This document shows, one piece after another, positions 6,870 to 24,862 of a stretch of DNA of 51,861 nt; the stretch's first letter is position 1, and each line of letters begins with the position of its first letter. The DNA is taken from positions 1-51,861 of the IMG/VR virus record IMGVR_UViG_3300027710_000035. One strand, 5' to 3'. A model generated the notes under the pieces. It saw only the letters and a program-made list of their open reading frames with translations, ran no database searches and had not been told where the DNA came from. Position numbers and translations under genes: made by a program. The stretch is from a virus.

Positions 6870-7310
6870 ATGCTACACACTATCACCACACTCAACGATC
6901 CACTACTAGCCTTGATCAAGGATGATCCAGTACGCCCGGACATTCCTCCAGAGTTTAGAGTATCAGAACGTTGTTCAGTGTATGTGTTACTAGATGATGA
7001 ATATAGTAAGCCACAGGCTGTGGTCTGCGTAGCACGTAAGAGTTCAGTGCCCAAAGATGTCTTAGAGTTAGCCAGTGAGGACTTAGAATTACCCACTGTG
7101 GCTGTATTCTATACTATATGGTCCTACAGTCCGGGAGCAGGGCGTCGACTCATTCAAGAAGCCCAAAAGAGCATACGTGTTGAATACAAGGATATCAAGA
7201 CTTTTGTTACATTATCGCCACCCACTGAAATGGCACGTATATTCCATTTAAAGAACGGTGCTGGTATTTTATCAGTTAATCCGGACACAGTTAATTACAT
7301 ATATCAATGA
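6870..7310 (+). CDS. GNAT-like acetyltransferase-fold protein (146 aa)
   Basis: The ATG at 6870 is chosen because an in-frame TTG at 6849 overlaps the -10 box and precedes transcription. The layout fits the GNAT fold: N-terminal strands, then AVFYTIWSYSPGAGRRLI (about residues 84-101), where SPGAGRRLI resembles the acetyl-CoA pyrophosphate loop, then TLSPPTEMARIFHLKNGA like the final strand-helix. Known GNATs transfer acetyl groups to amines; the substrate here is unknown. The ATGA overlap with the next gene shows coupling. The short leader has no Shine-Dalgarno. Confidence 0.6.
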   Translation: MLHTITTLNDPLLALIKDDPVRPDIPPEFRVSERCSVYVLLDDEYSKPQAVVCVARKSSVPKDVLELASEDLELPTVAVFYTIWSYSPGAGRRLIQEAQKSIRVEYKDIKTFVTLSPPTEMARIFHLKNGAGILSVNPDTVNYIYQ

Positions 7311-7900
7311 ATACATTTTATCTAGACATGGACGGAGTTGTCGCAGATTGGGACACTGCCGCTAGTAAATTCCTAGGCCGTCCACAACGAGCTCCCAATG
7401 ATCTCACACACTATAAGAACACTCCCGAAGAGTGGTCACGTATTAAGACGCAACTGCGATTTTATCGTGATCTACCCTTGATGCCCAGATGTGCGGAACT
7501 AGTGGATCTAGCTCGACGTTATAGAGACGGGCTAGGTTGGGAATTGCTGTTTCTAACTGCTGTGCCCAAAGAAGATGACGTGCCCTGGGCCTACTACGAC
7601 AAGGTACTATGGGCTGGGGAGCACTTTCCCGATATACCTGTACACTTTGGACCGCATAGTTGGGACAAGTATAAACACTGTAAACCTGGTGATATCCTAG
7701 TAGACGATCGACCTGATAACTGTTCTAGCTGGATTGAGGCAGGAGGCCTGGCTGTCAAAGTAGACGGCAACGATCTAGGTGCGGCTATTACCCAAGTTGG
7801 CTTCGACTTTAACCGACGTATGAGTCTACGTAGCATGGCTAGTCTAAACGCCATGGCTGACGCTATTGTGGCCAACGGTGGCTTTAAAGTTGGTACTTAA
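7307..7900 (+). CDS. HAD-family 5'(3')-deoxyribonucleotidase-like phosphatase (197 aa)
   Basis: HAD motif I is LDMDGVVAD at residues 6-14, with nucleophile D7 and acid/base D9. Motif II is FLTAVP, and motif IV is ILVDDRPDN. This matches the NT5C-type nucleotidases that dephosphorylate deoxynucleoside monophosphates, which would adjust the dNTP pool or degrade host nucleotides. The length fits the family. The gene overlaps the GNAT-like one by ATGA. The Lys motif III may be the K after LTAVP. Other small-phosphate substrates are possible. Confidence 0.78.
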   Translation: MNTFYLDMDGVVADWDTAASKFLGRPQRAPNDLTHYKNTPEEWSRIKTQLRFYRDLPLMPRCAELVDLARRYRDGLGWELLFLTAVPKEDDVPWAYYDKVLWAGEHFPDIPVHFGPHSWDKYKHCKPGDILVDDRPDNCSSWIEAGGLAVKVDGNDLGAAITQVGFDFNRRMSLRSMASLNAMADAIVANGGFKVGT

Positions 7901-9200: not shown

Positions 9201-9761
9201 ATGATTGAACAGAATTACCGAGGCTATCTCTTAGCCGCTCATCCTAAAAGACCTGACCCGTATCTACGTAAAGGCGTCATGTTAGTACTTGATCACGACA
9301 GTGCAGGTGCTATAGGATTACAAATTAATAAACCCTACAGTGACAATGTTAGTTTTGACACTGTGATGCAGAATGTAGGCCTGCCCAATGACATAGAACA
9401 ACCACTGTACAATGGTGGTCCGGAAAGTACAAATCGAATACATGTAATACACAGTTTAGATTGGTACAGTTCCAATACAACCAAGCTCACTGATCAGATT
9501 GGTGTCAGCAATGACATCAGCGTGTTGGCCGCTATATCGGACAACCAAGGTCCCGAGTACTTTAGAGTAGTAGCAGGATATACCAGATGGTTGCCCGGGC
9601 ATCTAGAAGGTGAAATACTGGGAGAAGAGCCCTGGAATATTAATCATACCTGGACCTATGTACCCGCAGAAATTGAAACCTTATTTGGCTTGGACAACAT
9701 AGATCAGTGGCACACGGTCATCGCTGAAAGCGGCCGTATGCAGGTATCTAGTTGGTTTTAA
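9201..9761 (+). CDS. YqgE/AlgH (UPF0301) family protein (186 aa)
   Basis: The N-terminus GYLLAAHPKRPDPYLRKGVM and the following HD-AGAIGLQINKP match the UPF0301 signature (in bacteria: G-LLIA-P---DP-F-RSV, H---GA-GL-INRP). The GGP box follows at about residue 73 and the full length (about 185) is normal for the family. Bacterial AlgH/YqgE is a conserved cytoplasmic protein linked to alginate regulation and energy metabolism, but its biochemical role is unsettled. It is unusual in a phage and probably came from a host. The stop overlaps the convergent helicase gene by 4 nt. Confidence 0.85.
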   Translation: MIEQNYRGYLLAAHPKRPDPYLRKGVMLVLDHDSAGAIGLQINKPYSDNVSFDTVMQNVGLPNDIEQPLYNGGPESTNRIHVIHSLDWYSSNTTKLTDQIGVSNDISVLAAISDNQGPEYFRVVAGYTRWLPGHLEGEILGEEPWNINHTWTYVPAEIETLFGLDNIDQWHTVIAESGRMQVSSWF

Positions 9762-11242
9762 TCTCGTTCACTGTTTAGGCCGTCTAGCATATTTCTAATA
9801 GCGGCCACTTTTAGAACTCCACTCTTGGGCTTGCTCAAATCAAAGCCCTCTTTGGGACTGGCCCGTTCCCAACTACTAGTACCGCCAGACGCTTCGCCTT
9901 CAGTGGCTGTATTGATAGCACTAGTACGTTTTAGTCCTGCATAGACACTGCTACCACCGCTGTTATTTTGGCGCTGTTGGTTAAAGCTGCCTTCTTCCTC
10001 TTCACCTAGATCTGTGATACGGAGTGTTTCTACATTAAACTCTAGATCAACCTTTTGTCCAACACCTGAACTAGAACGTGTCTTCATAAACTGGATTTGA
10101 TAGCGTCCACGTTCTTTCATAGCACGTGACGTAAAGATACCAATCACATTATCCGCAGTCATAATCTTTGACAGACCACCTGAGATGTGACTGTGATCGA
10201 ATTCAATTTCTTCGACTGCTGAACGATTCAGCTGTGACGCTGTAACTGTGATACATTGTGTTTCCATGGCCAAGTTACGAATCTCTTCTGACACATACTT
10301 GTCTTTAACAAACAAATCACTAGGGCTAACTTTAACACTCAGCGGCATCATTAAGTCCAAATAGTCAATAAGAATAACGTCGGGCTTGCAACCTTTCTTA
10401 ACTTGATATTCTTTCAAGTAAGCACGAATGTCATTACAGTTCTTGCCTGATGGCATATACTTGACCTGCAAGTTACCTGCCTTCTTGCCCAACATCTTAA
10501 CCTTGAGTTCAACATCATCGATGCTCTTAAACACTTCACGAGTACTAATCCCTGTCATCATAGAGTCTAAACGCATACTCACTAGACCTTCACTCAATTC
10601 GAATGTTAGATACAATACGTTAAGACCTTGCAATGCCCAGTTCACACCCATGTTGGCTAAGAACAAACTCTTACCACCACCAGAGCCAGCACAGAAAATG
10701 TTTAACTCACCGCGATTAAAGCCGCCATATAGTTTCTTATCAATGCTAGGCCATCCTGTGCTGATCTGTCCATTGCCATCTTTTAACTTACTTAGACGTG
10801 CCCTAGGATCTTCAAAGTAATCTGTACCCATATCTTTGTTTAGGCTGATTTGAATAGCGTCCTTGATCAGCTTCTCAACTGGTCCGTAGTCGCCCGATTC
10901 TAACAAGTCACTTGAATCAATGATTGCTCGCTCAAGTCCTTTATGTCGACTAAAGTTTTCAAACTCATTCATTAACCATTCATAATTTTCTTTAGGCAAT
11001 TGTACAGGATTTAAATCGGAACCTGTGCTAGCATTAACAATATTTGCCTCAGGCATTACCTTGTATTCATCTACATATTTGGTAATAAATGATGCAATGT
11101 CTTGTAGTCGTTGATCAAAGTTTAGTGGATCAAAAATGTTTTGACAGCGAACAAATGTCTCTGCATCACTCATAAACATCTCGAGATATAGTTTCTGAAT
11201 GTCGTAGTTGTAATTTGGTTTGGGTGCTTTTTCTTTACTCAT
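9758..11242 (-). CDS. 41: Replicative DNA helicase, T4 gp41-like (494 aa)
   Basis: DnaB/RecA-fold hexameric helicase that unwinds duplex DNA 5'-3' at the fork with primase gp61. Walker A GSGGGKS is at residues 186-192, Walker B ends in VILIDYLDLM, and QLNRSAVE matches the DnaB H4/RNA-binding motif. The N-terminal domain (1-150) is helical. The C-terminal 90 residues are Ser/Gly-rich and then hold a conserved helix that could contact partners. The start overlaps the primase stop by 8 nt, which couples the two subunits of the primosome. Length fits gp41 (475 in T4). Confidence 0.93.
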   Translation of the reverse strand: MSKEKAPKPNYNYDIQKLYLEMFMSDAETFVRCQNIFDPLNFDQRLQDIASFITKYVDEYKVMPEANIVNASTGSDLNPVQLPKENYEWLMNEFENFSRHKGLERAIIDSSDLLESGDYGPVEKLIKDAIQISLNKDMGTDYFEDPRARLSKLKDGNGQISTGWPSIDKKLYGGFNRGELNIFCAGSGGGKSLFLANMGVNWALQGLNVLYLTFELSEGLVSMRLDSMMTGISTREVFKSIDDVELKVKMLGKKAGNLQVKYMPSGKNCNDIRAYLKEYQVKKGCKPDVILIDYLDLMMPLSVKVSPSDLFVKDKYVSEEIRNLAMETQCITVTASQLNRSAVEEIEFDHSHISGGLSKIMTADNVIGIFTSRAMKERGRYQIQFMKTRSSSGVGQKVDLEFNVETLRITDLGEEEEGSFNQQRQNNSGGSSVYAGLKRTSAINTATEGEASGGTSSWERASPKEGFDLSKPKSGVLKVAAIRNMLDGLNSERD

Positions 11243-12239
11243 CTTTTAGTGCTTCTAGTTTTTTCTTCATTAGATTTATTTTTATCTCTCCTGCGACTCT
11301 ATAGTGCAAGATTGTGGTTAACGCATAGAGCCTGCCATACTTTTTTACAGCATCTGCAACGTCCTTGATGTCGTCATCCCAAGGCGGCAAACTGGCACTC
11401 CAGCCATTATCTATAGCAGCCTTGAGCATCTTGGCTCCAGGCTTGTCTTTGTCGGGTACTACAATCACTTCTCTAGCTAAAGCATTTATCCTAGCAACCT
11501 GAGCTTCGTTTGGTTCATTAGTCATGATAGCTACTCCATCTACAGCAATAGCATCAAACTGACCTTCAGTGACAATAACAAACTTTCTATTATAGTCTTG
11601 CCTATCTATGTTAAACACATAACCACTTTGACTATCTGTAAGATACTTGGGCTTACCTGCGGTTATCTTACGTCCTGTGTAGCCTACCACTTTACCGTCT
11701 TGATAAAACGGTATTAACACCCTATCTACATATCCGGGGCTAGGACTCCACATCCAATTGTACCAATCAAGATCCATACCCCGACTTAAAATGTATTCTA
11801 CTATCTTGCCAATATCTTCTGCTACATCGGGTAAGTATCCAGTGTTAATCCATTCCATTACAGACATTGTTCCTTCAGGTAAGGATCTTTCTAGTAGTGT
11901 TAGATTAAATGCTTTCTTAAGTACTGGCTGATCATCTTTGATCTTCATAGTAGCCAGATTAAGTTTACCTATGTCTATCTCACTCATCCCAATCCATTGG
12001 AACAAGTTTCTTGTATTCTTACTTAACAGTTTACCCGGTGTCCAACCTGCGGCAAATCCGCAATTAAAGCAATGATAAACGAAACCGTCGTTTTCTATTT
12101 TCACGCCGCCACGAAGTCTGTCGTCTTGACGCTCACCTCTATGAGAACAGCAAGGCGCATTGAAACTTGTCCAACCACCGGATGTTAGTTTTCTTTTTGG
12201 AGGCAGTAATGCTAATAATGCAGATTGTATATCATTCAC
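11235..12239 (-). CDS. 61: DNA primase, T4 gp61-like (334 aa)
   Basis: Synthesises RNA primers on the lagging strand together with gp41. An N-terminal zinc site is formed by C30 or C31, H33, C57 and C60 (CC-H ... CFNC). The TOPRIM core shows the Glu of VTEGQFDA and the DKDKPG acidic motif, the metal-binding residues of DnaG-type primases. Length matches gp61 (342). The start is a GTG; the ATG nearby is out of frame. No clear ribosome site precedes it. Confidence 0.92.
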   Translation of the reverse strand: MNDIQSALLALLPPKRKLTSGGWTSFNAPCCSHRGERQDDRLRGGVKIENDGFVYHCFNCGFAAGWTPGKLLSKNTRNLFQWIGMSEIDIGKLNLATMKIKDDQPVLKKAFNLTLLERSLPEGTMSVMEWINTGYLPDVAEDIGKIVEYILSRGMDLDWYNWMWSPSPGYVDRVLIPFYQDGKVVGYTGRKITAGKPKYLTDSQSGYVFNIDRQDYNRKFVIVTEGQFDAIAVDGVAIMTNEPNEAQVARINALAREVIVVPDKDKPGAKMLKAAIDNGWSASLPPWDDDIKDVADAVKKYGRLYALTTILHYRVAGEIKINLMKKKLEALKDE

Positions 12240-12248
12240 ATATACAGT

Positions 12249-13085
12249 TTAACTTCTGTAGAGGATTTTGTCAACTGTTCCGGAGTAAGCAGTATTCCTA
12301 TTGTCCACATCAGTAGGACCTTTGGCAGGAACGTGCTTGATTCGAATATATGAATATACTCCGTTAAAATTGGCATAGTCAACTCCGGTATAACCATTAT
12401 AGGTTAAGGTACTGACCACAGAATAATTTTCACTGCTATCTGGAGTGTTGTCCAATGTAGCTTCAACATAAACGGTGCCTTTATATGCTGTCATGTAAAT
12501 GGCTACAGTATGTAATGCCGAATTTCCATTGAATGCCGGATCTGCATAAATGTTACCGCTGTAATTTTCATACAGGCTAATCTCATCGTTCCAAACTGGA
12601 TTGAATGTAGTAACTGTAGTGCTATCTTTGAGCACAGGATTCACGTCGTTACTTAAATGCAGGGTTCCGGCCATACCGTAATAAGTATTTGAATATGCAG
12701 GGGTGTAACTACCATCAGAGTCTAATAATTTTACGCTGTATTGGTAGCTAGTTCTATCTAAGTCCAGAGTATCGCTTTCGTTGAGAGTTAATAAAGCAAG
12801 CCCGCGGGTAGCAGTAGTACCAAGATCTAAAACATCTAATTCTTTCTCTACTATCAGTCGTTGGTTAACAGCATCAAACATACTGAATACAAATGTTTGG
12901 GTATTATGAATTGTAACCTTTTTCTGATCGCTGTTTTTAAACTGGACTCGAACTTGGTTCTTAATCCCTTTTTGTATTTTCAAGTCTCGTTGATACATAA
13001 CCTGGTTGACTCCCCTAGTAGTAGCGTCCAAATCTAATATAACGGCGAGTGTATTTGGATATAAATAGATTGGTAAATTTTGCAT
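12249..13085 (-). CDS. Probable virion structural protein (278 aa)
   Basis: The sequence is almost all beta, rich in Thr, Tyr, Asn and Ser, without enzymatic motifs. Residues about 1-130 (PIYLYPNT, then QRDLKI-KGI-NQVRVQFKNSDQK, then an Ig-like run) resemble the N-terminal Ig-like domain of baseplate or upper-baseplate proteins in other phages, and I recall similar unannotated structural proteins in marine T4-like phages. The late-type box AATAAATA 5 nt before the ATG, with no Shine-Dalgarno, supports late expression. The exact position in the virion is unknown. Confidence 0.6.
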   Translation of the reverse strand: MQNLPIYLYPNTLAVILDLDATTRGVNQVMYQRDLKIQKGIKNQVRVQFKNSDQKKVTIHNTQTFVFSMFDAVNQRLIVEKELDVLDLGTTATRGLALLTLNESDTLDLDRTSYQYSVKLLDSDGSYTPAYSNTYYGMAGTLHLSNDVNPVLKDSTTVTTFNPVWNDEISLYENYSGNIYADPAFNGNSALHTVAIYMTAYKGTVYVEATLDNTPDSSENYSVVSTLTYNGYTGVDYANFNGVYSYIRIKHVPAKGPTDVDNRNTAYSGTVDKILYRS

Positions 13086-13090
13086 AAGAG

Positions 13091-13098
13091 TATTTATT
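13091..13098 (-). promoter_or_regulatory. Late-type promoter, leaderless spacing
   Basis: AATAAATA on the - strand, 5 nt before the ATG at 13085. No ribosome site is present. Confidence 0.6.
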
Positions 13099-13106
13099 TA
13101 AAAATA

Positions 13107-13484
13107 ATGAGAGATCAGTTTCAAGAAAATTTTCCCTTTATATCCTGCGTTAAATCCAATGACAAGGAGTACGTAGGCATTGTTATCAACTTCGATGACT
13201 ATATTGCCAGTATCTACGATCTATCAATGATATTAGGTGAAGCAGAGCGTAAGCTATTTTTAGAAATGGGGGAAGTTTGGTGGTGGGAAAGTAATCGCAA
13301 AATACCAATAAACATTTTTCTAAAAACTGAAATGCAGGTATTTAGGCCATTTATAAAAACGTTTAATTCTAAAGATGCAGAATTAGTTTTTGGACCAACA
13401 GTTAATCTCAGTGAGATTGCAGAGAAACGTATTAAAAGAAAATCAATACAATTAGTTAGAGCAGTTAAGAGTAACCGTAACTAA
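13107..13484 (+). CDS. Unknown protein in a convergent pair (125 aa)
   Basis: The ATG at 13107 is preferred over a TTG at 13080 that would overlap the divergent gene's start. The product has a Trp-rich stretch GEVWWWESNRKIPINIF and a basic C-terminus (IKRKSIQLVRAVKSNRN). I do not recognise a family. The last 20 nt overlap the 3' end of the DnaE-like gene on the other strand, so the two messages are antisense to each other at their ends. No ribosome site is evident. Confidence 0.6.
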   Translation: MRDQFQENFPFISCVKSNDKEYVGIVINFDDYIASIYDLSMILGEAERKLFLEMGEVWWWESNRKIPINIFLKTEMQVFRPFIKTFNSKDAELVFGPTVNLSEIAEKRIKRKSIQLVRAVKSNRN

Positions 13485-14043
13485 TACCTTCGCAGATTAA
13501 ATTCATTTGTACTACTACAGCCATTGCATAGGCAACTGCATGGGCTTTCTTAAAGTAGTACTCACCATCCTCGGGCTTTGTCCAAATCGTCTCCATCACT
13601 GTCGTCCAATCTGTCCCAATCAAATGCCTCTTCGCGGGTCGTATCATAGCCAAAACGGCCGCTAGTTGGAGTATCGTCTTCGGTTTCATCTGCCTTAGAA
13701 TGGAACCGTGTCCGTTGACGTGAAATAGTAAATTGCTGAAATCGTCCTGCTCTAAAAGGTCCCATAGTGGTTCAGTGTCCATTAAAGTTTTGAGATGAGT
13801 TTCATCTCGCACATCTTTATATATGCCTACATTCAAAAAATCTATCTTAAAGTACCCTCTATCCTCAGCTTTTTTATATTCTATACTAGCTGTATCAGTT
13901 AACGGATTGTACGGGATAGAATGACAATATACTCCAGTATTGTGCTTTTTAAAAGTACTATTTTCTTTCATAGCCGCAGGGACATGCTGGATAACATCCA
14001 ATACTTTTTTTCTATCAGCAAAGTCAATATCAATATCCGGCAA
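13465..14043 (-). CDS. Miniature DnaE-like (C-family polymerase palm) protein (192 aa)
   Basis: Collinear with the catalytic core of bacterial DNA polymerase III alpha, but drastically cut down. PDIDIDF (residues 2-8) matches PDFDVDF, which holds the two catalytic Asp (here D5, D7). KHNTGVY (33-39) matches KHAGGVV. FKIDFL (65-70) matches FDFLGL with the third catalytic Asp (D68). FHVNGHGSILRQMKP and IRPAKRHLIG (107-143) match the ES-GM ... RPGPL region, and YYFKKAHAVAYA (162-173) matches GFNKSHSAAYA. PHP, most fingers, thumb, OB and tau-binding parts are absent. DnaE is over 1100 aa, so this cannot be a normal replicase. Start is TTG at 14043, overlapping the kinase gene by 14 nt. I believe similar short proteins exist in other marine T4-like phages, unassigned. 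Confidence 0.75.
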   Translation of the reverse strand: MPDIDIDFADRKKVLDVIQHVPAAMKENSTFKKHNTGVYCHSIPYNPLTDTASIEYKKAEDRGYFKIDFLNVGIYKDVRDETHLKTLMDTEPLWDLLEQDDFSNLLFHVNGHGSILRQMKPKTILQLAAVLAMIRPAKRHLIGTDWTTVMETIWTKPEDGEYYFKKAHAVAYAMAVVVQMNLICEGISYGYS

Positions 14044-14797
14044 TTCGAATCTCGTCGTAAGATGGTGCGTAGTTACCGCGGTGTTGAACAGTAATACCTG
14101 CGGCTATGTTAGCAAATATTATAGCTTTTTCTATGTCTTTTGTAAAGAGATATTGAGCAGTTAGTGCAGCCAAAAATGTATCACCACATCCACATACATC
14201 CATTACTTCAACAGCTTTTGTTGGACATTCTATGTCGTGATGCGGAACCTTTGCGCCTCGGTCACCTAATGTAACAATTAGTCCAGAACATTCACTTTTA
14301 AGTCTGCTATATTCTAATTCATTAACTTTAACCCAAGCACCTTGGAAGCGTTCCAAATCTGTTTTCTTTGTATCGATAAAAACAGGAATAGAACTTTCAA
14401 TAAGACTTTCAATATGTTCATAGGTTAAGAAACCTTTGTCATAATCTGAAATAACAATAGCATCATAAGAGTCTAATGAGTTAGGAAGTTTCCCTGACCA
14501 TTGAACAACATTGTCTTCGTCGTCAACTCTTAAAAGGTGCTGTCCTGATCTTTTATCTATGAATCTAGTTTTAGTAATTGAAGTTCCGTTATGCACAAAG
14601 TCGGCTTCGATGTTTAAGTTTACTAGGTTACGGTGTACGTTTGCACTCATACCGGGTAGTGAAAATGTTTCTACAATTTTAACAACGGGGACAGGAGCCT
14701 CTGGGCTCAATCTATCTACTGTACCTATATTATAGATATCAGTACAACTATCACCGATCAGTAATACGTTGTATGATGTTTGTTGTTGAGTATCCAT
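14030..14797 (-). CDS. Heptose-7-phosphate kinase-like PfkB protein (255 aa)
   Basis: PfkB/ribokinase fold closest to the kinase domain of HldE (RfaE1), which makes D-glycero-manno-heptose 1,7-bisphosphate in ADP-heptose synthesis. Evidence: the RLSPEAPVPV motif (29-38, RISPEAPVPV in HldE), PGMSANV (48-54, PGGAANV in HldE), and GCGDT (203-207) as the anion hole with catalytic D206. It is shorter than the bacterial domain (about 318). It overlaps the nucleotidylyltransferase gene by 47 nt, so the two HldE activities are split but adjacent. Other sugar substrates are possible. Confidence 0.85.
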   Translation of the reverse strand: MDTQQQTSYNVLLIGDSCTDIYNIGTVDRLSPEAPVPVVKIVETFSLPGMSANVHRNLVNLNIEADFVHNGTSITKTRFIDKRSGQHLLRVDDEDNVVQWSGKLPNSLDSYDAIVISDYDKGFLTYEHIESLIESSIPVFIDTKKTDLERFQGAWVKVNELEYSRLKSECSGLIVTLGDRGAKVPHHDIECPTKAVEVMDVCGCGDTFLAALTAQYLFTKDIEKAIIFANIAAGITVQHRGNYAPSYDEIRIAGY

Positions 14798-15146
14798 CTA
14801 CTAGTTCCACAAATTTAATTTCTTTACAATACTTGGCACCTACAATAGGTTTACCTCGGTAGTCACTGCCCTTGACCATTATGTCTGGTTGGTACATTTC
14901 GCAGATACGTTCTAGGTCTGCTTCGGAATCAAAGGTCCAAACTGCATCAACAGCTTTCAAACCATTCAACATAAATTGTCGGTCATTTTGATTATTGATG
15001 GGACGATCCTGGCCTTTAAGTTCTGCAACTCTTCGATCAGTGTCTATACATACTAGAAGAAATTCTCCTAGACTTTTAGCGTATTCAAGTAGTTCAATAT
15101 GACCTCGATGTAAGATATCAAACGTACCATTGACTATAATTTTCAT
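14751..15146 (-). CDS. ADP-heptose-type nucleotidylyltransferase (131 aa)
   Basis: Cytidylyltransferase-like fold. NGTFDILHRGH (residues 6-16) contains the HxGH motif that binds the nucleotide phosphates; the later MVKGSDYRGKPIVGA matches the RfaE2 domain of HldE, which adds AMP to heptose 1-phosphate. Glycerol-3-phosphate cytidylyltransferase is the main alternative, but the neighbouring HldE-like kinase favours the heptose pathway. The ATGA overlap with the cupin gene upstream and the 47-nt overlap downstream show one translated unit. The GmhA, GmhB and HldD steps are not in this window. Confidence 0.85.
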   Translation of the reverse strand: MKIIVNGTFDILHRGHIELLEYAKSLGEFLLVCIDTDRRVAELKGQDRPINNQNDRQFMLNGLKAVDAVWTFDSEADLERICEMYQPDIMVKGSDYRGKPIVGAKYCKEIKFVELVDGYSTTNIIQRITDR

Positions 15147-15502
15147 AGTTGACTATCACCTTTGGCAACACGATAATTATCTTCTACACTATCGGGTGTG
15201 CTAACTTCTATAAGTGTTCCTGCTTCTAAACAAATGACCTGATGTGGTAACAGTGGAGGATTATGCCACGTATCGTTTTCATTTAGAATATGTTCATACT
15301 GAGTTGCATTGGCTGTATTAATGCAGATAACTTTAAATTTTCCGTTCAATACATACCATGTTTCATCTTTTACACTATGGAAGTGCATACTAAATTTTGC
15401 ACCTGTGTTAAACTTTAAAAGTTTTCCGCAGTACTTATCGTTGGTAGCAAATATAAATTCACTGCCCCAACCTTTTTCTACAAAACCTTCTAATCGTGTC
15501 AT
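15143..15502 (-). CDS. Cupin, sugar-isomerase-like (119 aa)
   Basis: Single cupin barrel. Metal ligands are probably H40, H42, E47 and H87 (SMHFHSVKDETWYVLNGK ... PHQV). The pattern KGWGSEFIF at the N-terminus resembles the mannose-6-phosphate isomerase/GDP-mannose pyrophosphorylase cupin domain ('KPWG'). ATG at 15502 is preferred to a TTG at 15547: it has GGAGA upstream and overlaps the preceding stop in ATGA. Placed before the heptose genes, it probably acts on the same sugar, which is inference. Confidence 0.72.
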   Translation of the reverse strand: MTRLEGFVEKGWGSEFIFATNDKYCGKLLKFNTGAKFSMHFHSVKDETWYVLNGKFKVICINTANATQYEHILNENDTWHNPPLLPHQVICLEAGTLIEVSTPDSVEDNYRVAKGDSQL

Positions 15503-15675
15503 GCGGGCATCTCCAAAAATCTGTGTAGGAAACTTTCTAGGTAGCAACTATATTCTTTATCGGATCCGTGCTCACCGTAATAGACCCAGGTCTTTCCTTC
15601 TACCTCTACTACTGCTTTAACATAGAATGATTTAACGTGACCACTCCACCATTTACTACCAACCTTGGGTATCAT
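15499..15675 (-). CDS. Hidden 58-aa protein
   Basis: A short frame fills the gap between two coupled genes: ATG at 15675 (TAATG overlap with the upstream stop) to TGA at 15501-15499 (ATGA overlap with the cupin start). The product begins MIPKVGSKWWSGHVK and ends in LESFLHRFLEMPA, a compact beta-rich shape like small SH3-type domains. Because both ends are coupled to neighbours and the frame is full, it is very likely real. Function unknown. Confidence 0.7.
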   Translation of the reverse strand: MIPKVGSKWWSGHVKSFYVKAVVEVEGKTWVYYGEHGSDKEYSCYLESFLHRFLEMPA

Positions 15676-17860: not shown

Positions 17861-18348
17861 TGATATTCTTTTCTATCTTTTTTATCAAAACCCATTTTGT
17901 CAAACAGCTCTATCTTTTCTTCATCTGTCATTACACTGGCTAACAATTTAATCTCATCCATCTTATATGTTGGATGTAGGATAGCCAACAACTTTTCAAA
18001 CTTGTCAAAGTCTGCCTTCATAGCAGGCAAGTATGGATGGTAACTTTTAATACCTGCGCCAGTGGCAGCATACAATAACCAAAGTAATTTTTCGTGGTTC
18101 TTACTCAATGTCCAGTGGTGCTTATTAACCATCTCATTGGTCATCTCAACAAACCATTCTTGAATATCTCTGTCATTAGATCCTACACTACTGACAAATC
18201 TTAACAGTACATACGGACTAAATTCTTTCAATTCTGCGGCAGTGAGATTGTCATAAAATTCGTAGTTCTTACTGTCAACAGCAGACAACACTCGAGTTAA
18301 ATCAAGTGCTCTTTTCTTTGGTTCTTTTTTAGGTTTTGCTGTTGCCAT
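17857..18348 (-). CDS. 62: Probable clamp-loader small subunit, gp62-like (163 aa)
   Basis: In T4, gp62 with gp44 loads the sliding clamp gp45. The central part SPYVLLRFVSS ... NEMVNKHHWTLSKNHEKLLWL follows the layout of phage gp62 (PY--NR-LS ... NEMN--HHLD---QY-FL), and the C-terminal ELFDKMG after a charged helix fits the same family. Length (163) is close to gp62 (187). Similarity is by pattern only; gp44 and gp45 are not in this window. The stop overlaps the zinc-finger gene's start. Confidence 0.6.
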   Translation of the reverse strand: MATAKPKKEPKKRALDLTRVLSAVDSKNYEFYDNLTAAELKEFSPYVLLRFVSSVGSNDRDIQEWFVEMTNEMVNKHHWTLSKNHEKLLWLLYAATGAGIKSYHPYLPAMKADFDKFEKLLAILHPTYKMDEIKLLASVMTDEEKIELFDKMGFDKKDRKEYQ

Positions 18349-18574
18349 GTTCTTTACTTAGATGATAAACGGTCATTAATTTTTCTAATGCAATTTTTAT
18401 TGCAGGATTAGTTTCGGCCATTTCCTGTATTTCGCGCCACTGTACATATTCTTCAATACGCATGCCGCCGCCAGGACTGGTAGAACCAATACCGAGATTA
18501 CCACTAGAATCAATACGCATAACAGCTTGCGGAAGAACTGACGCTACTTCTTGGGCAAAAAATCCATATGTCAT
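18329..18574 (-). CDS. Chimeric small gene with tail-fibre fragments (81 aa)
   Basis: ATG at 18574 overlaps the previous stop (ATGA); a TTG at 18586 is less likely. Residues 3-15 (YGFFAQEVASVLPQA) match an S74-type chaperone, and residues 18-33 (RIDSSGNLGIGSTSPG) match the tail-fibre repeat upstream of such chaperones, but in the reverse order. The rest (EEYVQWREIQEMAETNPAI ... YHLSK) is a paralogue of the end of the 18571-18873 gene. It looks like a small gene that captured tail-fibre pieces by recombination. Possibly not functional as a whole. Confidence 0.6.
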   Translation of the reverse strand: MTYGFFAQEVASVLPQAVMRIDSSGNLGIGSTSPGGGMRIEEYVQWREIQEMAETNPAIKIALEKLMTVYHLSKEHGNSKT

Positions 18575-18873
18575 ACCGGATGCCAATCTACTGTTTCCTT
18601 GTTCTTACTTAGATGATATATTATTATACACTGTTCTAAGGCTTTTTGCAAGGCAGGGTTTGTCCGGGCTTCGCGGCGTATATCGCCCCAAAGTTTATCT
18701 TCTTTGATATGTTCGTACAATGGCCGCCCATCTGGTGTCCTTGGGTCTTTTTCATTTTGATATTGATAGCCGATTAATTTTCTAGATTGGACTGGAGCAC
18801 CTACTTCTCTGGCGTAGATCTCTTCGCCATTGCGTTCATAGATATATGTAGCGCCTGGTGTTAATGTACCCAT
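18571..18873 (-). CDS. Conserved phage protein (100 aa)
   Basis: The N-terminus LTPGATYIYERNGEEIYAR and the RKLIGYQY part are a pattern I recall from small proteins of marine T4-like phages. The C-terminal helix WGDIRREARTNPALQKALEQ then YHLSK is duplicated in the next gene. Function unknown; beta N-terminal plus helical C-terminal halves. The ATG starts 3 nt after the upstream stop without a clear ribosome site, so it depends on coupling. Confidence 0.7.
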   Translation of the reverse strand: MGTLTPGATYIYERNGEEIYAREVGAPVQSRKLIGYQYQNEKDPRTPDGRPLYEHIKEDKLWGDIRREARTNPALQKALEQCIIIYHLSKNKETVDWHPV

Positions 18874-18876
18874 AAT

Positions 18877-19380
18877 TTACCAACATTTAGTATAATCTAC
18901 AATTTCACTTTGACGGCTCACTTCTTTGACAAAGTAAGCACACATCGGTTTGTCACCACCGGTTAGGGGAGTGCATAATAGTTGTCCAGGTTTCATTTTA
19001 GGGAAGTACCATTTAACATCTGGATATATGTCTATGATATCTATCTCATGAAACTCTGGCCTAAATCCACTAATAGGATTAAAACAGTAGGTCTTAAATC
19101 CACGATCATTTAAACTTGTAAGTGGTAACACTTCCATGTCTGGACCTTCTGGATCACCGACGACTGTACACCAATCTAATGGCATGGTAAGTTCATATGG
19201 TCCAATCTTCAGTACGGCTGCTGGCCCTGTAAAACTCTCAAGGAAGATAAGAGGAATAAAGAAATAATCAGGATTTTGATTATCGCTGTTATCTAGTACT
19301 GAGAATCTTAGATCCTCATCTACTTCCTCTGGTAGGTCATTGAGATAGAATGTTTTGTTTTCTAATGTTAAAATTTGCAT
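18877..19380 (-). CDS. Conserved protein next to UvsW (167 aa)
   Basis: Start overlaps the UvsW stop (TAATG). A mostly beta protein with conserved aromatic and Pro residues (GPYELTMPLDWCTVVGDPEG; LTSLNDRGFKTY; WYFPKMKPGQLLCTPL). It is found next to UvsW in related phages as far as I recall, but no function is known. No enzymatic motif is visible. Its fixed place hints at a role in late recombination or regulation, which is inference. Confidence 0.7.
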   Translation of the reverse strand: MQILTLENKTFYLNDLPEEVDEDLRFSVLDNSDNQNPDYFFIPLIFLESFTGPAAVLKIGPYELTMPLDWCTVVGDPEGPDMEVLPLTSLNDRGFKTYCFNPISGFRPEFHEIDIIDIYPDVKWYFPKMKPGQLLCTPLTGGDKPMCAYFVKEVSRQSEIVDYTKCW

Positions 19381-20843
19381 TATTGATATTTCACTTTTTG
19401 AATTTCGAACGGATACTTGGCTTCTTTATAAAACTTCTTGCGTTCTGTAAGATGCCTCTTCGCGTACTTTGTAGATGCCGTAAGGTCCCAGATTTGGACG
19501 AAGTCCTTGTCGTCTGCTTTTCTAATGCCTCGCCCAATGCTTTGTATAACCCGGACAAAGCTCTTTCCGGGCTCAAGAAGAACCATATTAAAAATACGGG
19601 GGATATTAATACCCACAGCGGCCACACCGTAAGTCGCCACAATAATCTTGTTGTCAGCAGTTTTAATTTCGTCATACTCGTCTTTTCTATCTTTGGTTTT
19701 CATAGAGCCCGAGACAAAAACGCTGTCTGGAATATTGTTAATGATTAATTGACCGGACTCAATTCTATCAACTAATACTAGAGTGTTGCCTGTTTCTGCA
19801 ATGCCATTAATAAGATTGCTGATCCAATTCATACGTGTTTCGTCGGTGACTAGATATTTTAATTCACCTGCATAGCTTTCAAATTCTTTCCACTCTGCTG
19901 TCTGAATAACTGTTACATGACAATCACTGAGCACACCTTTTTCTTGAAGTTCGTGTGCTTTAACACGATGTACAACTTCACCTAAACTGGCACGTAGAGC
20001 CTGAAATTCGTGGTCTGCTTTAGGTACTGTTCCTGTTAATCCCCAACGTATGGGTGCGTTGGACAGATTGCGTGTTAAAAGATTCTTTAACACTTCTGCC
20101 TTGGCCATATGTACCTCATCAACCATAACACAGCTGACACCGTCTAACAATTCAGCTAGACGTAACAGTTGTTCTTCACCGTCAAATTCCTTGGAACCTT
20201 TGTCTAAAATGTTCAAACTTTGCCAGGTGCAGATTGTATGAGTTTTGTCTAAGTTCTTTCTGTCGCCGTAGTAAACACCTACGTCTAATCCGCAGTTAAG
20301 AAAGTCTTCTTCAGTTTGTTCGACAAGACTCTTGTTAGGAACAATGGTTATTGTTCGACCATATTTTTCACAAATTTTCGCCAAAGTTGCGGTAGTAATC
20401 GTCTTGCCAAAACCGGTGGCAATTTCTTGTATGCACTGGGGATTTTCTAAAAACTTATTGATAACTTCAACTTGGTCATCACGCAGTCTAATCTTTTCTC
20501 CGGCAAATCGATGACCTACAGGCCATGTTTGATCACCCCAAAATTCCTCAGAAATTTCAGGGAAACTTAGGGCTGTTGGACGTCGATGATCTTCTAACTC
20601 GATGTAATAATTCTTTGCTTCAAGATATTCAAGGACCTGCGGCAGCATACTCATATAGGTAGTACCACCGAGACCAAAAAAGCTGATGCTGCCATCCCAT
20701 CTTCCTAGCTTGTAAGCTGGTCTATACCGTGCAGTAGGGTCTTCATACTTGAATTTTTTGACCAAAGCCTTACGTGCATCAAGATCTAAATTTTCAATCT
20801 TAACGTTAACTTCGTCTTTAATAATTATTTTGCAGGAGGCCAA
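19380..20843 (-). CDS. uvsW: UvsW-like DNA/RNA helicase (487 aa)
   Basis: Superfamily 2 helicase that in T4 unwinds R-loops and branched DNA and helps switch from origin to recombination replication. Walker A ATGFGKT is at residues 142-148, the DEVH Walker B at about 245, and LTGTVPK is motif III. The C-terminal RecA domain ends with the QSIGRGIRK motif VI. The N-terminal 90 residues carry the KLGRWDG substrate-binding fold typical of UvsW. The start is TTG at 20843, 26 nt inside the preceding gene; no ATG fits. Confidence 0.92.
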   Translation of the reverse strand: MASCKIIIKDEVNVKIENLDLDARKALVKKFKYEDPTARYRPAYKLGRWDGSISFFGLGGTTYMSMLPQVLEYLEAKNYYIELEDHRRPTALSFPEISEEFWGDQTWPVGHRFAGEKIRLRDDQVEVINKFLENPQCIQEIATGFGKTITTATLAKICEKYGRTITIVPNKSLVEQTEEDFLNCGLDVGVYYGDRKNLDKTHTICTWQSLNILDKGSKEFDGEEQLLRLAELLDGVSCVMVDEVHMAKAEVLKNLLTRNLSNAPIRWGLTGTVPKADHEFQALRASLGEVVHRVKAHELQEKGVLSDCHVTVIQTAEWKEFESYAGELKYLVTDETRMNWISNLINGIAETGNTLVLVDRIESGQLIINNIPDSVFVSGSMKTKDRKDEYDEIKTADNKIIVATYGVAAVGINIPRIFNMVLLEPGKSFVRVIQSIGRGIRKADDKDFVQIWDLTASTKYAKRHLTERKKFYKEAKYPFEIQKVKYQ

Positions 20844-22014
20844 AATCTAAGGTCCTTGTTTTGTTGTTGTCTAATACATTAATCACGTTATGGTGCCAAT
20901 TTAGCAAATTTTTGATGGAATAGTGAATATTATAAAAATTAAAATTCACTACACAATTAAATTTTATTTTTTTGTCGAGAATTGTCTTAGGAACTTTACT
21001 ACTGATAAACACTGCCTTAGTTTTTTCACTAATGCTAGAATTTAATTTCTCTTCTCTAACAAAATTATTGAATTTTTCACCAGTTTCGTTGGGTAGCCTA
21101 AACAGCACACTAATTTCTTCATTAGAAATTTCATTAACTTTTAAAAAGTCTAAAGATTTTTCTAATTTTTCTATTTCACTGCCGCCTGGAATTACGAACA
21201 AAGCCGGACCCATAAATTTTACAATATCTTTGAGAGAAAAAATACCATTTTCTTCCAAATTTATTGACATATTTTCACCAGGATCAGTTTGTAAGAATTT
21301 TTTAACCACAGGATCCGCATTTTTCCACTCATCAGTTTGTTCAATGGTTTCGTCCCAGGTAAAAATTCCTAATTTTCTTGCCTTGAACAAATTTTCAAGG
21401 ATGTTTGAATTAGTGGGTTGAGCTATTTTTTCAGAAATATTCAAAAATTTCAGATTTTTGCCATCGAATGATAACATAGGAATGTATTGCTCAATGTTAG
21501 CTTCAATTTCTCTGATTTGATTTTGATAATTTTCAAATTCTTCATCAACTATGAAATTTTCTTCAATAGCAACACGACCTAAAAATGTCAATGACCGCTC
21601 ATCTAGTGAAAAAATCCATGCTTTATGCTCGGGATCCCATTGTGCCATGTTTAGCTTGGGCTTTTCTTCTCTAATTCTTGCCAGCAGTGATTCGTTAAAT
21701 GGAAATTCTAATTTAATTGTTTTTCCAAAGTTGGAATGTTCAAACATAGCAATACGTTTGAAGGAAGACACTAATCTTCTTGCCAGTCTAAATGACGGAT
21801 TTTCCAAAAATGGCAAAATATCCTTGCCAAAGATAGAATTTAACTTTGCTACCTGTCTTTTAAGAATTTTTACAGACAATAATTCTTGCTTTTCTGTAAA
21901 ACCTGAGCCCCGGGATATTTGATCGTGAAAACTGTATATCAATTTTGAATCATATGGATTCATTGACACATTACGGCTAATGGCAAGGGCAATAATTAGG
22001 TCTTCAATATACAT
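20818..22014 (-). CDS. Unknown conserved protein, possible UvsW partner (398 aa)
   Basis: The sequence is rich in Phe, Asn, Lys and Glu and its codons are more AT-rich than the neighbours. Residues about 108-150 (PKLNMAQWDPEHKAWIF then L-FLGRVA) resemble the small DNA-binding HARP-like fold of SMARCAL1-type annealing helicases, but only faintly. Its 26-nt overlap with UvsW suggests that they work together. A TATAAT 6 nt upstream of the ATG and no Shine-Dalgarno predict a leaderless mRNA. Confidence 0.65.
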   Translation of the reverse strand: MYIEDLIIALAISRNVSMNPYDSKLIYSFHDQISRGSGFTEKQELLSVKILKRQVAKLNSIFGKDILPFLENPSFRLARRLVSSFKRIAMFEHSNFGKTIKLEFPFNESLLARIREEKPKLNMAQWDPEHKAWIFSLDERSLTFLGRVAIEENFIVDEEFENYQNQIREIEANIEQYIPMLSFDGKNLKFLNISEKIAQPTNSNILENLFKARKLGIFTWDETIEQTDEWKNADPVVKKFLQTDPGENMSINLEENGIFSLKDIVKFMGPALFVIPGGSEIEKLEKSLDFLKVNEISNEEISVLFRLPNETGEKFNNFVREEKLNSSISEKTKAVFISSKVPKTILDKKIKFNCVVNFNFYNIHYSIKNLLNWHHNVINVLDNNKTRTLDFGLLQNNY

Positions 22015-22062: not shown

Positions 22063-22518
22063 TTACAGCACTACGTCTTCTAGTCCAGCTGTTCGAAGTT
22101 TGATGATATTACTCAATTGCCATTGTTTTATATCCAAAGCCTTGACAATGCCCAACCACTGATTTCGTAGCATGGCAAATTCGTTGATAATTTTTTCCAT
22201 ATCAACAACATCTGCTTCACCATCGACATATTTTTCAACGTCTCGACTGCTTAGTGCTCTTTGATAATTCTCTAGATATTTTTTAAATGCTTTACTACGA
22301 GTACGTCTTAATTCAATGTTCAAATATTCCAATACAGCTTCGATTTCTTGAAGTTGATTGAAACGTTGTTCAACAATACCGGGTAAATGGGCTGAGGCTT
22401 TTTCCACGTTGCCGTGAATCTTAACCTCATACCTTGCAGAATCTAGTTCTTTATAAAAGTGCTCTATGCAGTCAGGAAGGAACGATATGTCTTTGCTTAC
22501 TTTAGAGTACCATGACAT
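22063..22518 (-). CDS. uvsY: UvsY-like recombination mediator (151 aa)
   Basis: In T4, UvsY loads UvsX onto gp32-covered single-stranded DNA. The family signature appears here as YQRALSSRDVEKYVDGEADV (residues about 86-105) followed by helical segments. Length (151) is near T4 UvsY (137). It lies downstream of UvsX and one small gene, with a 2-nt gap, as in other T4-like phages. A terminator follows at once. Confidence 0.88.
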   Translation of the reverse strand: MSWYSKVSKDISFLPDCIEHFYKELDSARYEVKIHGNVEKASAHLPGIVEQRFNQLQEIEAVLEYLNIELRRTRSKAFKKYLENYQRALSSRDVEKYVDGEADVVDMEKIINEFAMLRNQWLGIVKALDIKQWQLSNIIKLRTAGLEDVVL

Positions 22519-22520
22519 AC

Positions 22521-22772
22521 TCAGTCCATGTCTTCACCGTAGTCGTAGTCTTCTTCGTCGATGTCTTCTTCGTCATCTTTGTTTTCATCTACAACTAACT
22601 GGATTGCATTGTCTAAGTACGTATCATATCCCATCAAACTTTCAAGGACTGACAACTCAACATCTTTACCTAACAAAAAGTCAACGTATTGATTAGCGGC
22701 AACTTCTTTGTTTTTATCAGAGACATATTCTCTGAATGTATCCCATACTTCTATGATTAGATCTTCTTCCAT
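22521..22772 (-). CDS. Acidic small protein between UvsX and UvsY (83 aa)
   Basis: Start overlaps the UvsX stop (TAATG). The N-terminal part is helical (EEDLIIEVWDTFREYVSDKNKE), followed by a second helical part (SVLESLMGYDTYLDNAIQL) and a very acidic tail (DDEEDIDEEDYDYGEDMD). Related phages often keep a small gene here, as I recall, but its role is unknown. The acidic tail could mimic DNA or bind recombination proteins. Confidence 0.75.
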   Translation of the reverse strand: MEEDLIIEVWDTFREYVSDKNKEVAANQYVDFLLGKDVELSVLESLMGYDTYLDNAIQLVVDENKDDEEDIDEEDYDYGEDMD

Positions 22773-23839
22773 TATGCCTCCTCGGTGTCTTCACTTACTA
22801 CTGGATCTACGGACTTTTCACCATTCTTGGAAATGTCTTCCATCATAATGGACAAGCCTTCTTTCTCGTTCTTTTCCCATGCCTTGCGGAACTGTTTGAT
22901 GACTTCGCCATCTGTAGTTGTGTAAACAAGACTGTTGCCTTCTTTCTTCAACATACCTTTGGCTTCGAACAAGTCAACTAAACCGCTATGTGGACTCATA
23001 CCTGTTGAATACGGAATCTCAACTTGTACAGCTTCGAAAGGTTTAGCATAACGAGTTTTCATAATCTTACAAGCAGAACGAATACCGTTAACTGTAGTAG
23101 TCTTATTACCATCTGCATCTGTTTTCAATTTCAACTTACGCATAGCAACTACAATAGAGCTTGCATAGATGAAACCTTGTCCACCGCTAATCTTATCGTC
23201 TGGATCAAACATGTCTTGCGATGCATAAGTGTGATTTGTACAAACCATACCCACGTTCCAAGAACCAAACATGTTAACACAGTTACGAACAAGACTTGTA
23301 AGTGCCTTAGGCTTACGGCCCATGTCACCTTTCATTTCACCTGCTTCGAACTGATTAACGTCTGTAGGAGTTAACAACATACCCAAAGAGTCGATTACAA
23401 ATAATACCTTAGGACGAACGTCCTCAGCCATTGTTTTATACTCTTTCATGAATTCAGAAATAGTTTTAGCTACGTCATCAATCATGGCCATGTTAAGTTT
23501 TAGAAGTTTATCTTCACTGGTGTCAACACCTAGATCCTCTAACCATTTCTGATCAAGAGCATTTTCACTGTCAACTAGAACAACATAGATACCTTGTTCC
23601 TGTGCCGCTTTAATAATGTTACCGGAACAGATATATGATTTACCTGCTCCTGATTCGCCCGCAAAAACTGTTACTTTGCCCAGGGGAACTCCCTTGTAGA
23701 AGTCCCCTGAGATAAGATAGTTCAGGGCGTAGTTACCGGTTGAAATCCAATCGGTAGGGTCATTAAACCCAATTCCTAAGCCATCAATACTTTTAGTGAT
23801 AGACTTACGGAACTTCGATATATCGAAGGCCTTTCCCAT
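22772..23839 (-). CDS. uvsX: UvsX RecA-like recombinase (355 aa)
   Basis: Forms filaments on single-stranded DNA and drives strand exchange. Walker A GESGAGKS is at residues 61-68, Walker B ends in VLFVIDSLGML, and the L2-like loop carries ISGGQGFIYASS. The C-terminal 30 residues are acidic, as in other UvsX proteins. Length fits the family (about 390). The ATG is preceded by GGAGATAGAC. Co-transcribed with the small acidic gene and UvsY. Confidence 0.95.
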   Translation of the reverse strand: MGKAFDISKFRKSITKSIDGLGIGFNDPTDWISTGNYALNYLISGDFYKGVPLGKVTVFAGESGAGKSYICSGNIIKAAQEQGIYVVLVDSENALDQKWLEDLGVDTSEDKLLKLNMAMIDDVAKTISEFMKEYKTMAEDVRPKVLFVIDSLGMLLTPTDVNQFEAGEMKGDMGRKPKALTSLVRNCVNMFGSWNVGMVCTNHTYASQDMFDPDDKISGGQGFIYASSIVVAMRKLKLKTDADGNKTTTVNGIRSACKIMKTRYAKPFEAVQVEIPYSTGMSPHSGLVDLFEAKGMLKKEGNSLVYTTTDGEVIKQFRKAWEKNEKEGLSIMMEDISKNGEKSVDPVVSEDTEEA

Positions 23840-23851
23840 GTCTATCTCCTA

Positions 23852-24862
23852 TTAAGTACTTTGACGATTGCGAATCATCGCAATGATATCTGCGGCTCTG
23901 CTAGATGCTTCACCACCTGCGCTCTCAGCTTTTGCGGCTGGAGGAGTGAATGATTTCTCTGCTGTTGCAACTTCTTCTTCCCAGGGTGCAGCCTCTTCGG
24001 CTACAGGTGCTGGTGCTGCCTTAGGAGCAGGTGCGGCTGCTGGTGCTGCCTTAGCGCCACCTTCATCTGCATCGCGGCCACCAAAGCCTGCTGGCTTAAA
24101 GTATTGGCTCCAACGATCTGGATCATATGCTTCGCCATCAACTGATGCTTCAAACATTTCTTTGATGACTTTAAGTTCAACTGCGCCTGGCTTCTTAGGT
24201 AAGAAGTCTGACAATTTGAACAAACCGTGTTGTGCAATAGCCGCTTGTTCTTCTTCGCTCAATGCACGTTCACGACGAGCCCAAGTTGAAGTAGAGTAGT
24301 CAGCGTAACCACCTTTGCTAGTTTTAGCAATCTTAAAGTCCAAACCACGAACGTAGTCTGTTGGCAATTCTTCGATCTCTGCATCCATTAGTGCGTTCTT
24401 AACAATGTTAAAAATCTGGCTACCAATGATGAATCGACGAATTGGATTCTCTGGAGTACGGTCTTCTTTGAACTTGCTGTCAACAACAAATCCTTGGAAT
24501 AAGTAAGACTTTTTCTTCCAGTACTTACGACCCATATCTTCCAAGCTCTTGTCTTTGAACCAAGGACGAACCTCAGTAAGAATTGGACAGGTCTCACCCC
24601 ACATTTCCATACATGGGACTTGCACAGTCACGGGCTTAGAATTTGTTTCACCTTTAATTCCAGCAAAAGGCAATTTGATCATTGCTCGCTCTAACCAGAA
24701 AAAAGTGTTGTTTGTGTCGCCATCGGGCAAGAAACGAACTGTTACGTTTGTGTTTTCTGCGATGTTCCAGTGTGGAAAAATTGCGTTGTCGCCGCCGGAT
24801 TGTCCGCCGGTTTGTTGTGCGCTCTGTTGAAGTTTTGCGCGAATTTCTGCTAACGTTGCCAT
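23852..24862 (-). CDS. 32: Single-stranded DNA-binding protein gp32 (336 aa)
   Basis: Coats single-stranded DNA and recruits replication and recombination proteins. The N-terminal basic region is MATLAEIRAKLQQSAQQ; the core has WLERAMIKLPFAGIKG and CMEMWGETCPI, where the two cysteines may form part of the zinc site of gp32, though the full CxxC set is not obvious. The linker is Ala/Pro/Glu-rich (AAPAPKAAPAPVAEE). The end is not the usual acid tail but RAADIIAMIRNRQST. Start site AAGGAAACATTATT. It precedes UvsX by 12 nt. Confidence 0.9.
   Translation of the reverse strand: MATLAEIRAKLQQSAQQTGGQSGGDNAIFPHWNIAENTNVTVRFLPDGDTNNTFFWLERAMIKLPFAGIKGETNSKPVTVQVPCMEMWGETCPILTEVRPWFKDKSLEDMGRKYWKKKSYLFQGFVVDSKFKEDRTPENPIRRFIIGSQIFNIVKNALMDAEIEELPTDYVRGLDFKIAKTSKGGYADYSTSTWARRERALSEEEQAAIAQHGLFKLSDFLPKKPGAVELKVIKEMFEASVDGEAYDPDRWSQYFKPAGFGGRDADEGGAKAAPAAAPAPKAAPAPVAEEAAPWEEEVATAEKSFTPPAAKAESAGGEASSRAADIIAMIRNRQST

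Follow-up and report, generated by a model that had tools for sequence, protein, structure and literature searches.

An environmental phage gene encodes the predicted C-terminal half of a split, minimal C-family DNA polymerase

Introduction

C-family DNA polymerases are, to our knowledge, the replicases of all bacteria, and they are known as very large single-polypeptide enzymes. A split, minimal form of the DNA polymerase III alpha subunit (Pol III alpha) was described in group 2.2 jumbo phages by Iyer et al. in 2021 (PMC7824862). Examples are RaK2 ORF124 with ORF162, 121Q gp16 with gp56, and the corresponding pairs of Atu_ph07, PA5oct and Phosso. In these phages the partner half is located elsewhere in the genome and a family B DNA polymerase is present. 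Phages of group 3.2 (phage G and c-st) encode a full-length DnaE-type enzyme that includes a PHP domain and replaces the family B polymerase (PMC7824862). We found no functional test of split minimal Pol III alpha in the open-access literature.

Here we analyze a gene within a 51,861-nucleotide stretch of viral DNA (IMG/VR record IMGVR_UViG_3300027710_000035; hereafter, the window) that belongs to the split minimal Pol III alpha kind. An earlier note on this DNA had treated the gene as a novelty. Because the kind was reported in 2021, the window adds a member rather than a new system. What is new is a residue-level map that includes the steric gate, models of both halves on adjacent DnaE ranges, invariance in approximately 200 sequences, a set of conserved neighbors, many environmental members, the near-adjacency of the two halves in one phage, and the presence of the pair in a complete 141-kb non-jumbo phage.

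Results

The gene under study, which we refer to as B, was singled out in the earlier note for its 192-residue product and for four motifs that follow one another in DnaE order, and all of these features are present as described (Table 1). The PHROG_11778 profile (‘DNA polymerase’) matches residues 3-185 of the protein with E = 6.9e-66. Homologs spanning at least 80% of the window protein were found in 63 phage records, with 33-53% identity to annotated phage homologs, and more than 550 IMG/VR stretches carry such a homolog among the matches listed. Consistent with the TTG codon representing the true start, each of the 76 relatives matched from residue 1 onward has a start codon at the aligned position (ATG in 70, GTG in 3, TTG in 3). 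Comparison of B with near relatives gave dN/dS values of 0.055-0.15, indicative of purifying selection. Based on the family match, the homologs, the supported start and these dN/dS values, we conclude that the open reading frame is a real gene that is strongly selected and maintained.

Scanning bacterial and archaeal genomes for B returned a single match, on a 3.7-kb contig assigned to an archaeal MAG; we read this contig as phage DNA. A phmmer search of PDB sequences with the single window protein gave no match, and a Pfam search with the same protein gave sub-threshold matches only. The family profile of B does pick up DnaE structures (Mtb DnaE 5lew, E 4.9e-4) – a family profile is thus needed to reach them.

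The AlphaFold model of B (m5d40c622005c) has a mean pLDDT of 93.0 and a pTM of 0.84. When this model was structurally aligned to PDB chains using VIA-align 2, the 14 best rows were all C-family polymerases and the next unrelated row had a Z of 3.0. Against Taq DnaE in its ternary complex (3e0d_A), the top row, 188 residues aligned (Z 9.8, rmsd 3.5), and the range of Escherichia coli DnaE covered by the model is 400-781. The earlier description of B as a DnaE-like core is thus borne out by both the PHROG_11778 match and the superposition of the model on a C-family palm. The predicted fold identifies B as a C-family (DnaE/PolC) polymerase core.

Within this core, B comprises palm segments two and three, the beginning of the fingers, and the O-helix, which bears the steric-gate histidine. 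The gene had previously been called palm-only, a description that does not hold – the aligned DnaE range extends into the first part of the fingers and takes in the O-helix, making B more than a palm, and the other half of the palm is encoded by a second phage gene (see below). The GRGS-bearing first palm segment is missing from B, whose first residue corresponds to E. coli 399-400. The PHP domain, the thumb and (HhH)2 are likewise missing, with 188 of the 192 residues aligning to palm and fingers only, as are the OB and tau parts. Two spacings are consistent with these losses: D7 and H34 are separated by 26 residues in B versus 105 in E. coli, a gap that, from the domain boundaries, we take to correspond to the thumb; and RPAK and FKKAH are ~26 residues apart in B versus ~115 in E. 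coli. Alignment and spacings therefore agree with the earlier statement that B is without PHP, thumb, most of the fingers, OB and tau parts. In other C-family enzymes the thumb holds DNA. With the thumb and much of the fingers gone, template-primer binding would have to come from elsewhere, or would be weak.

We mapped the residues of B against the sequence of E. coli K-12 DnaE (Table 1), with the correspondence between KHNTG and KHAGG assigned by eye in a motif alignment. In E. coli, D401, D403 and D555 are catalytic metal ligands that are absolutely conserved in the C family, while D405 is conserved in DnaE and replaced by Asn in PolC (PMC3919608). H760 has been modelled as a steric gate that touches the sugar of the incoming dNTP (PMC8485763). 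The D401/D403/D555 triad is matched in B by D3/D5/D68, which, by homology, are the predicted metal-binding aspartates. The three catalytic aspartates that had been reported for B are thus all kept, though the set given for them (D5/D7/D68) was shifted by one: the correspondence with E. coli corrects it to D3/D5/D68 and makes D7 the counterpart of D405.

Using a set of 201 unique B-homologous sequences, we found D3, D5, D7, H34, G37, K66 and D68 in all 200 sequences that cover them. R135 was kept in 198 of 198 covering sequences and H168 in 197 of 197. Conservation of the aspartates across related phages, which had been proposed as a check on the palm assignment, is therefore complete among the covering sequences.

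Table 1. Features of the window around the B gene, with residue equivalents in E. coli DnaE.
Feature	Position	Strand	Remarks
Split Pol III alpha C-terminal half (B)	13465..14043	-	192 aa, TTG start; PHROG_11778, E 6.9e-66
PDIDIDF, residues 2-8	14020..14040	-	D3 = E. coli D401, D5 = D403 (catalytic), D7 = D405
KHNTG, residues 33-37	13933..13947	-	Counterpart of E. coli KHAGG 510-514; H34 and G37 invariant
FKIDFL, residues 65-70	13834..13851	-	K66 = K553; D68 = D555, third catalytic Asp
IRPAK, residues 134-138	13630..13644	-	Counterpart of E. coli FRPGP, fingers start; R135 = R639
FKKAHAVAYA, residues 164-173	13525..13554	-	O-helix; H168 = E. coli steric gate H760
Convergent gene, unknown function, phrog_11637	13080..13484	+	3' end overlaps the B 3' end by 20 bp
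Virion structural protein, phrog_14467	12249..13085	-	Conserved neighbor, 80 loci
DNA primase, phrog_47	11235..12239	-	Conserved neighbor, 81 loci
DnaB-like replicative helicase, phrog_19	9758..11242	-	Conserved neighbor, 70 loci
UvsW-type DNA helicase, phrog_16	19380..20843	-	Upstream, same replication/recombination block
UvsY-like mediator	22063-22518	-	Upstream of B
UvsX-like recombinase	22772-23839	-	Upstream of B
ssDNA-binding protein	23852-24862	-	Upstream of B

In C-family active sites, the GRGS segment sits just before the DxD strand. We identified a second small gene, A, in the 12 genomes searched; it encodes a protein of ~170 amino acids that matches positions ~360-429 of PHROG_405, a full-length DnaE-type profile. 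The positions matched by B on the same profile are 577-697 and 773-809, with a weak match from 437. On this profile the end of A falls at 429 in almost every genome, with three exceptions at 430-437, and the start of B falls at 437-438. A proteins end in GVGRGSS...EFL[RK], with the GRGSS invariant in more than 80 A sequences. Consistent with A supplying the segment missing from B, the A profile falls on E. coli DnaE 318-393 and stops there.

The model of A (pLDDT 92.9), aligned in the same way as that of B, matches E. coli 272-393 and other C-family chains. Its 13 best rows are C-family polymerases (best Z 10.3, next unrelated 2.5), and its first 60 residues are without a counterpart in C-family chains. 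On the same structures, the models of A and B thus fall side by side without overlap, in E. coli at 272-393 and 400-781. We conclude that A carries the GRGS-bearing first segment of the palm and ends ~5 residues before the start of B, and that A and B are complementary halves of one C-family core.

We also considered intein-mediated rejoining of the two halves. The C-terminus of A mostly lies 1-2 residues past the [ED]FL motif and B begins at PDIDIDF; with A stopping and B starting right at the split, no space is left for intein halves, and these end points rule rejoining of this sort out.

A search of the window for the partner gene found none within the 52-kb fragment. Across other genomes the two halves go together: A accompanied B in 12 of the 12 genomes first tested, both were present in all eight IMG/VR contigs of at least 345 kb, and an accession comparison placed A in 59 of 60 B-bearing phage records among those listed. 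The one listed B record that lacks A (PP728206, 109 kb) comes from a group with ~350-kb genomes. Several IMG/VR contigs of 142-296 kb have B and no A; they could be fragments or genuine B-only genomes. A family B DNA polymerase was present in 14 of 14 relatives tested, and no family A polymerase was found in the 12 relatives searched.

Two phages extend this distribution. Alishewanella phage Slicko01 (OQ508956.1, L331) has a complete, circular 141-kb genome that encodes both halves and a family B polymerase, showing that the pair also occurs outside jumbo phages. The family B matches of Slicko01 are spread over two open frames of 578 and 322 amino acids, which may be one split or interrupted gene. 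In a 161-kb contig (L330), A and B lie at 2158-2718 and 7188-7766, ~4.5 kb apart and with GroES-like and clamp-loader genes between them; elsewhere the distance is tens to hundreds of kb. Genes for a topoisomerase, a co-chaperonin and a clamp loader are also found near A in 121Q and RaK2.

We next examined the genomic context of B. Among relatives with enough flanking sequence, the primase and DnaB-like helicase genes lie downstream of B in nearly all (counts in Table 1). The small convergent gene was beside B in 87 loci, on the opposite strand every time and with the 3' ends overlapping or abutting. This order of convergent gene, structural gene, primase and DnaB recurs around B across named relatives and loci, and RaK2 has UvsW in the same order relative to B. 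The B gene thus sits between UvsX/UvsY/UvsW and primase/DnaB. The earlier note had placed it in an operon with a sugar kinase and a nucleotidylyltransferase and not with replication genes; this does not fit the primase and DnaB genes downstream, the UvsX, UvsY, UvsW and ssDNA-binding protein genes upstream, or the finding that pfkB is upstream of B in only 21 loci.

The sugar genes themselves form a sugar-nucleotide cassette at 14030-15547 (minus strand) that encodes a PfkB kinase, a cytidylyltransferase-like protein (phrog_7878, HldE-type) and a cupin. The cassette is upstream of B in only about a quarter of loci, its genes being near B in some 20, so we dropped the sugar genes as candidate functional partners of B. 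They are a local insertion.

Other open reading frames on the minus strand of the window also drew our attention. A 398-residue ORF between UvsW and UvsY (20818-22014) has no PHROG match at E 1e-5. Among the replication-region genes, a short ORF at 18329-18586 with FAQEVASVLPQAV...GNLGIGSTSP resembles a fragment of a tail-spike or fibre chaperone domain. Next to the tail-fibre genes, adjacent ORFs at 48612-49685 and 49698-50855 match phrog_1417, a family of unknown function, and more weakly phrog_1325 at the N-terminus; they are probably a tandem duplication.

Discussion

We propose that B is the C-terminal half of a two-polypeptide, stripped-down C-family DNA polymerase that is active when A and B combine and elongates primers alongside the family B polymerase. 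Judging from the alignments and models, we regard this as rather probable. It is the likeliest reading because catalytic and sugar-selecting residues are kept in both halves, while parts that serve processivity and host contacts are gone. A and B would associate without splicing and rebuild one C-family active site that is devoid of PHP, thumb, most of the fingers, HhH, OB and tau-binding parts. With a primer terminus and an incoming dNTP bound at the rebuilt site, extension would proceed by two-metal catalysis. Both halves are encoded among genes for the primase, helicase and clamp loader, and this machinery could recruit them. The pair might then contribute short or assisted stretches of synthesis, at the phage fork or during repair, leaving bulk synthesis to the phage family B polymerase. 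That the pair is specifically a heterodimeric, thumb-less, dNTP-specific C-family polymerase working beside the family B replicase at the fork is a further step to which we give about an even chance. Possible tasks at the fork include primer hand-off, synthesis of one strand, and gap filling.

Other roles could be imagined for the pair. A or B, or both, might be non-catalytic mimics that use the fold for binding only and block or redirect the host Pol III holoenzyme (through clamp, tau, epsilon or primase) or the phage replisome. The loss from B of parts required for processive synthesis fits such a role, as does the fact that phages of this kind already have a family B polymerase. However, the three aspartates, K66 and the steric-gate histidine are invariant over ~200 B sequences and the GRGSS over more than 80 A sequences – invariance that would be unexpected for a binding decoy. 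Moreover, the DnaE parts that have been lost (PHP, clamp-binding, OB and tau-binding) are the host-contact ones, and we consider mimicry unlikely. Small representatives of the Pol beta nucleotidyltransferase fold, which includes the C-family palm, have many activities of that kind. This membership, and the reduction of the thumb and template-side fingers in B, would suit an active but non-templated nucleotidyltransferase with an active site drawn from both halves, such as a terminal transferase or a modifier of RNA ends or proteins. Yet an O-helix whose steric-gate histidine contacts the dNTP sugar is kept without exception, and the neighborhood of B is one of replication, making this role quite unlikely in our estimation.

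The remaining alternatives concern B by itself. Its confident model in isolation would be compatible with B being a complete minimal enzyme, the palm-only form that had been envisaged. Such an enzyme would be without the GRGS segment of C-family active sites, though, and a partner gene encodes GRGS in every complete genome tested; we think a self-sufficient B very improbable. Finally, the large deletions relative to DnaE might point to a decaying remnant of a captured host dnaE. The earlier note had argued against decay from the retained aspartates, rightly so: dN/dS is 0.055-0.15, the start codon and catalytic residues are kept over ~33-53% identity, and the same deletions are found across the family. 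Decay is already contradicted by these conservation data, and we give it almost no credence.

If the active two-polypeptide polymerase is real, it would represent a natural minimal C-family enzyme, with an active site built from two unspliced polypeptides, in jumbo phages and in some smaller T4-like phages. From a conserved, natural, two-piece version of ~360 residues one could read which parts C-family catalysis truly requires. It would also leave to be explained why a second polymerase core is retained by phages that have a family B replicase of their own. With the residue map and the complementary split, a reconstitution test is direct.

Comparison with known systems clarifies where the window gene stands. 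Bacterial DnaE1, DnaE2, DnaE3 and PolC share with B the aspartate triad, KHxxG, RPG/RPA, FNKSHAxAYA, the palm and part of the fingers. However, the bacterial replicases are single chains of ~900-1200 amino acids with PHP, thumb, full fingers and (HhH)2, whereas phage A and B are two polypeptides of ~170 and 192 amino acids that are devoid of those domains. Cyanobacterial split DnaE resembles A and B in being a C-family polymerase that derives from two separated genes. There, a split intein joins the two halves and restores a full-length enzyme. In contrast to this intein split (noted in PMC3919608), the A/B split lies between GRGS and DxD and lacks intein halves. The group 3.2 enzymes (PHROG_405) are, like A and B, phage-encoded members of the C family, but they are full length and stand in place of a family B polymerase, whereas A and B stand beside one. 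The closest system is the split Pol III alpha of group 2.2 phages, with which the window shares the protein, its size, its motifs and PHROG_11778, as well as the B neighbors – convergent small gene, structural protein, primase and DnaB helicase. Relative to that group, the window phage is a diverged environmental member that carries a heptose-type kinase, a nucleotidylyltransferase and a cupin upstream of B.
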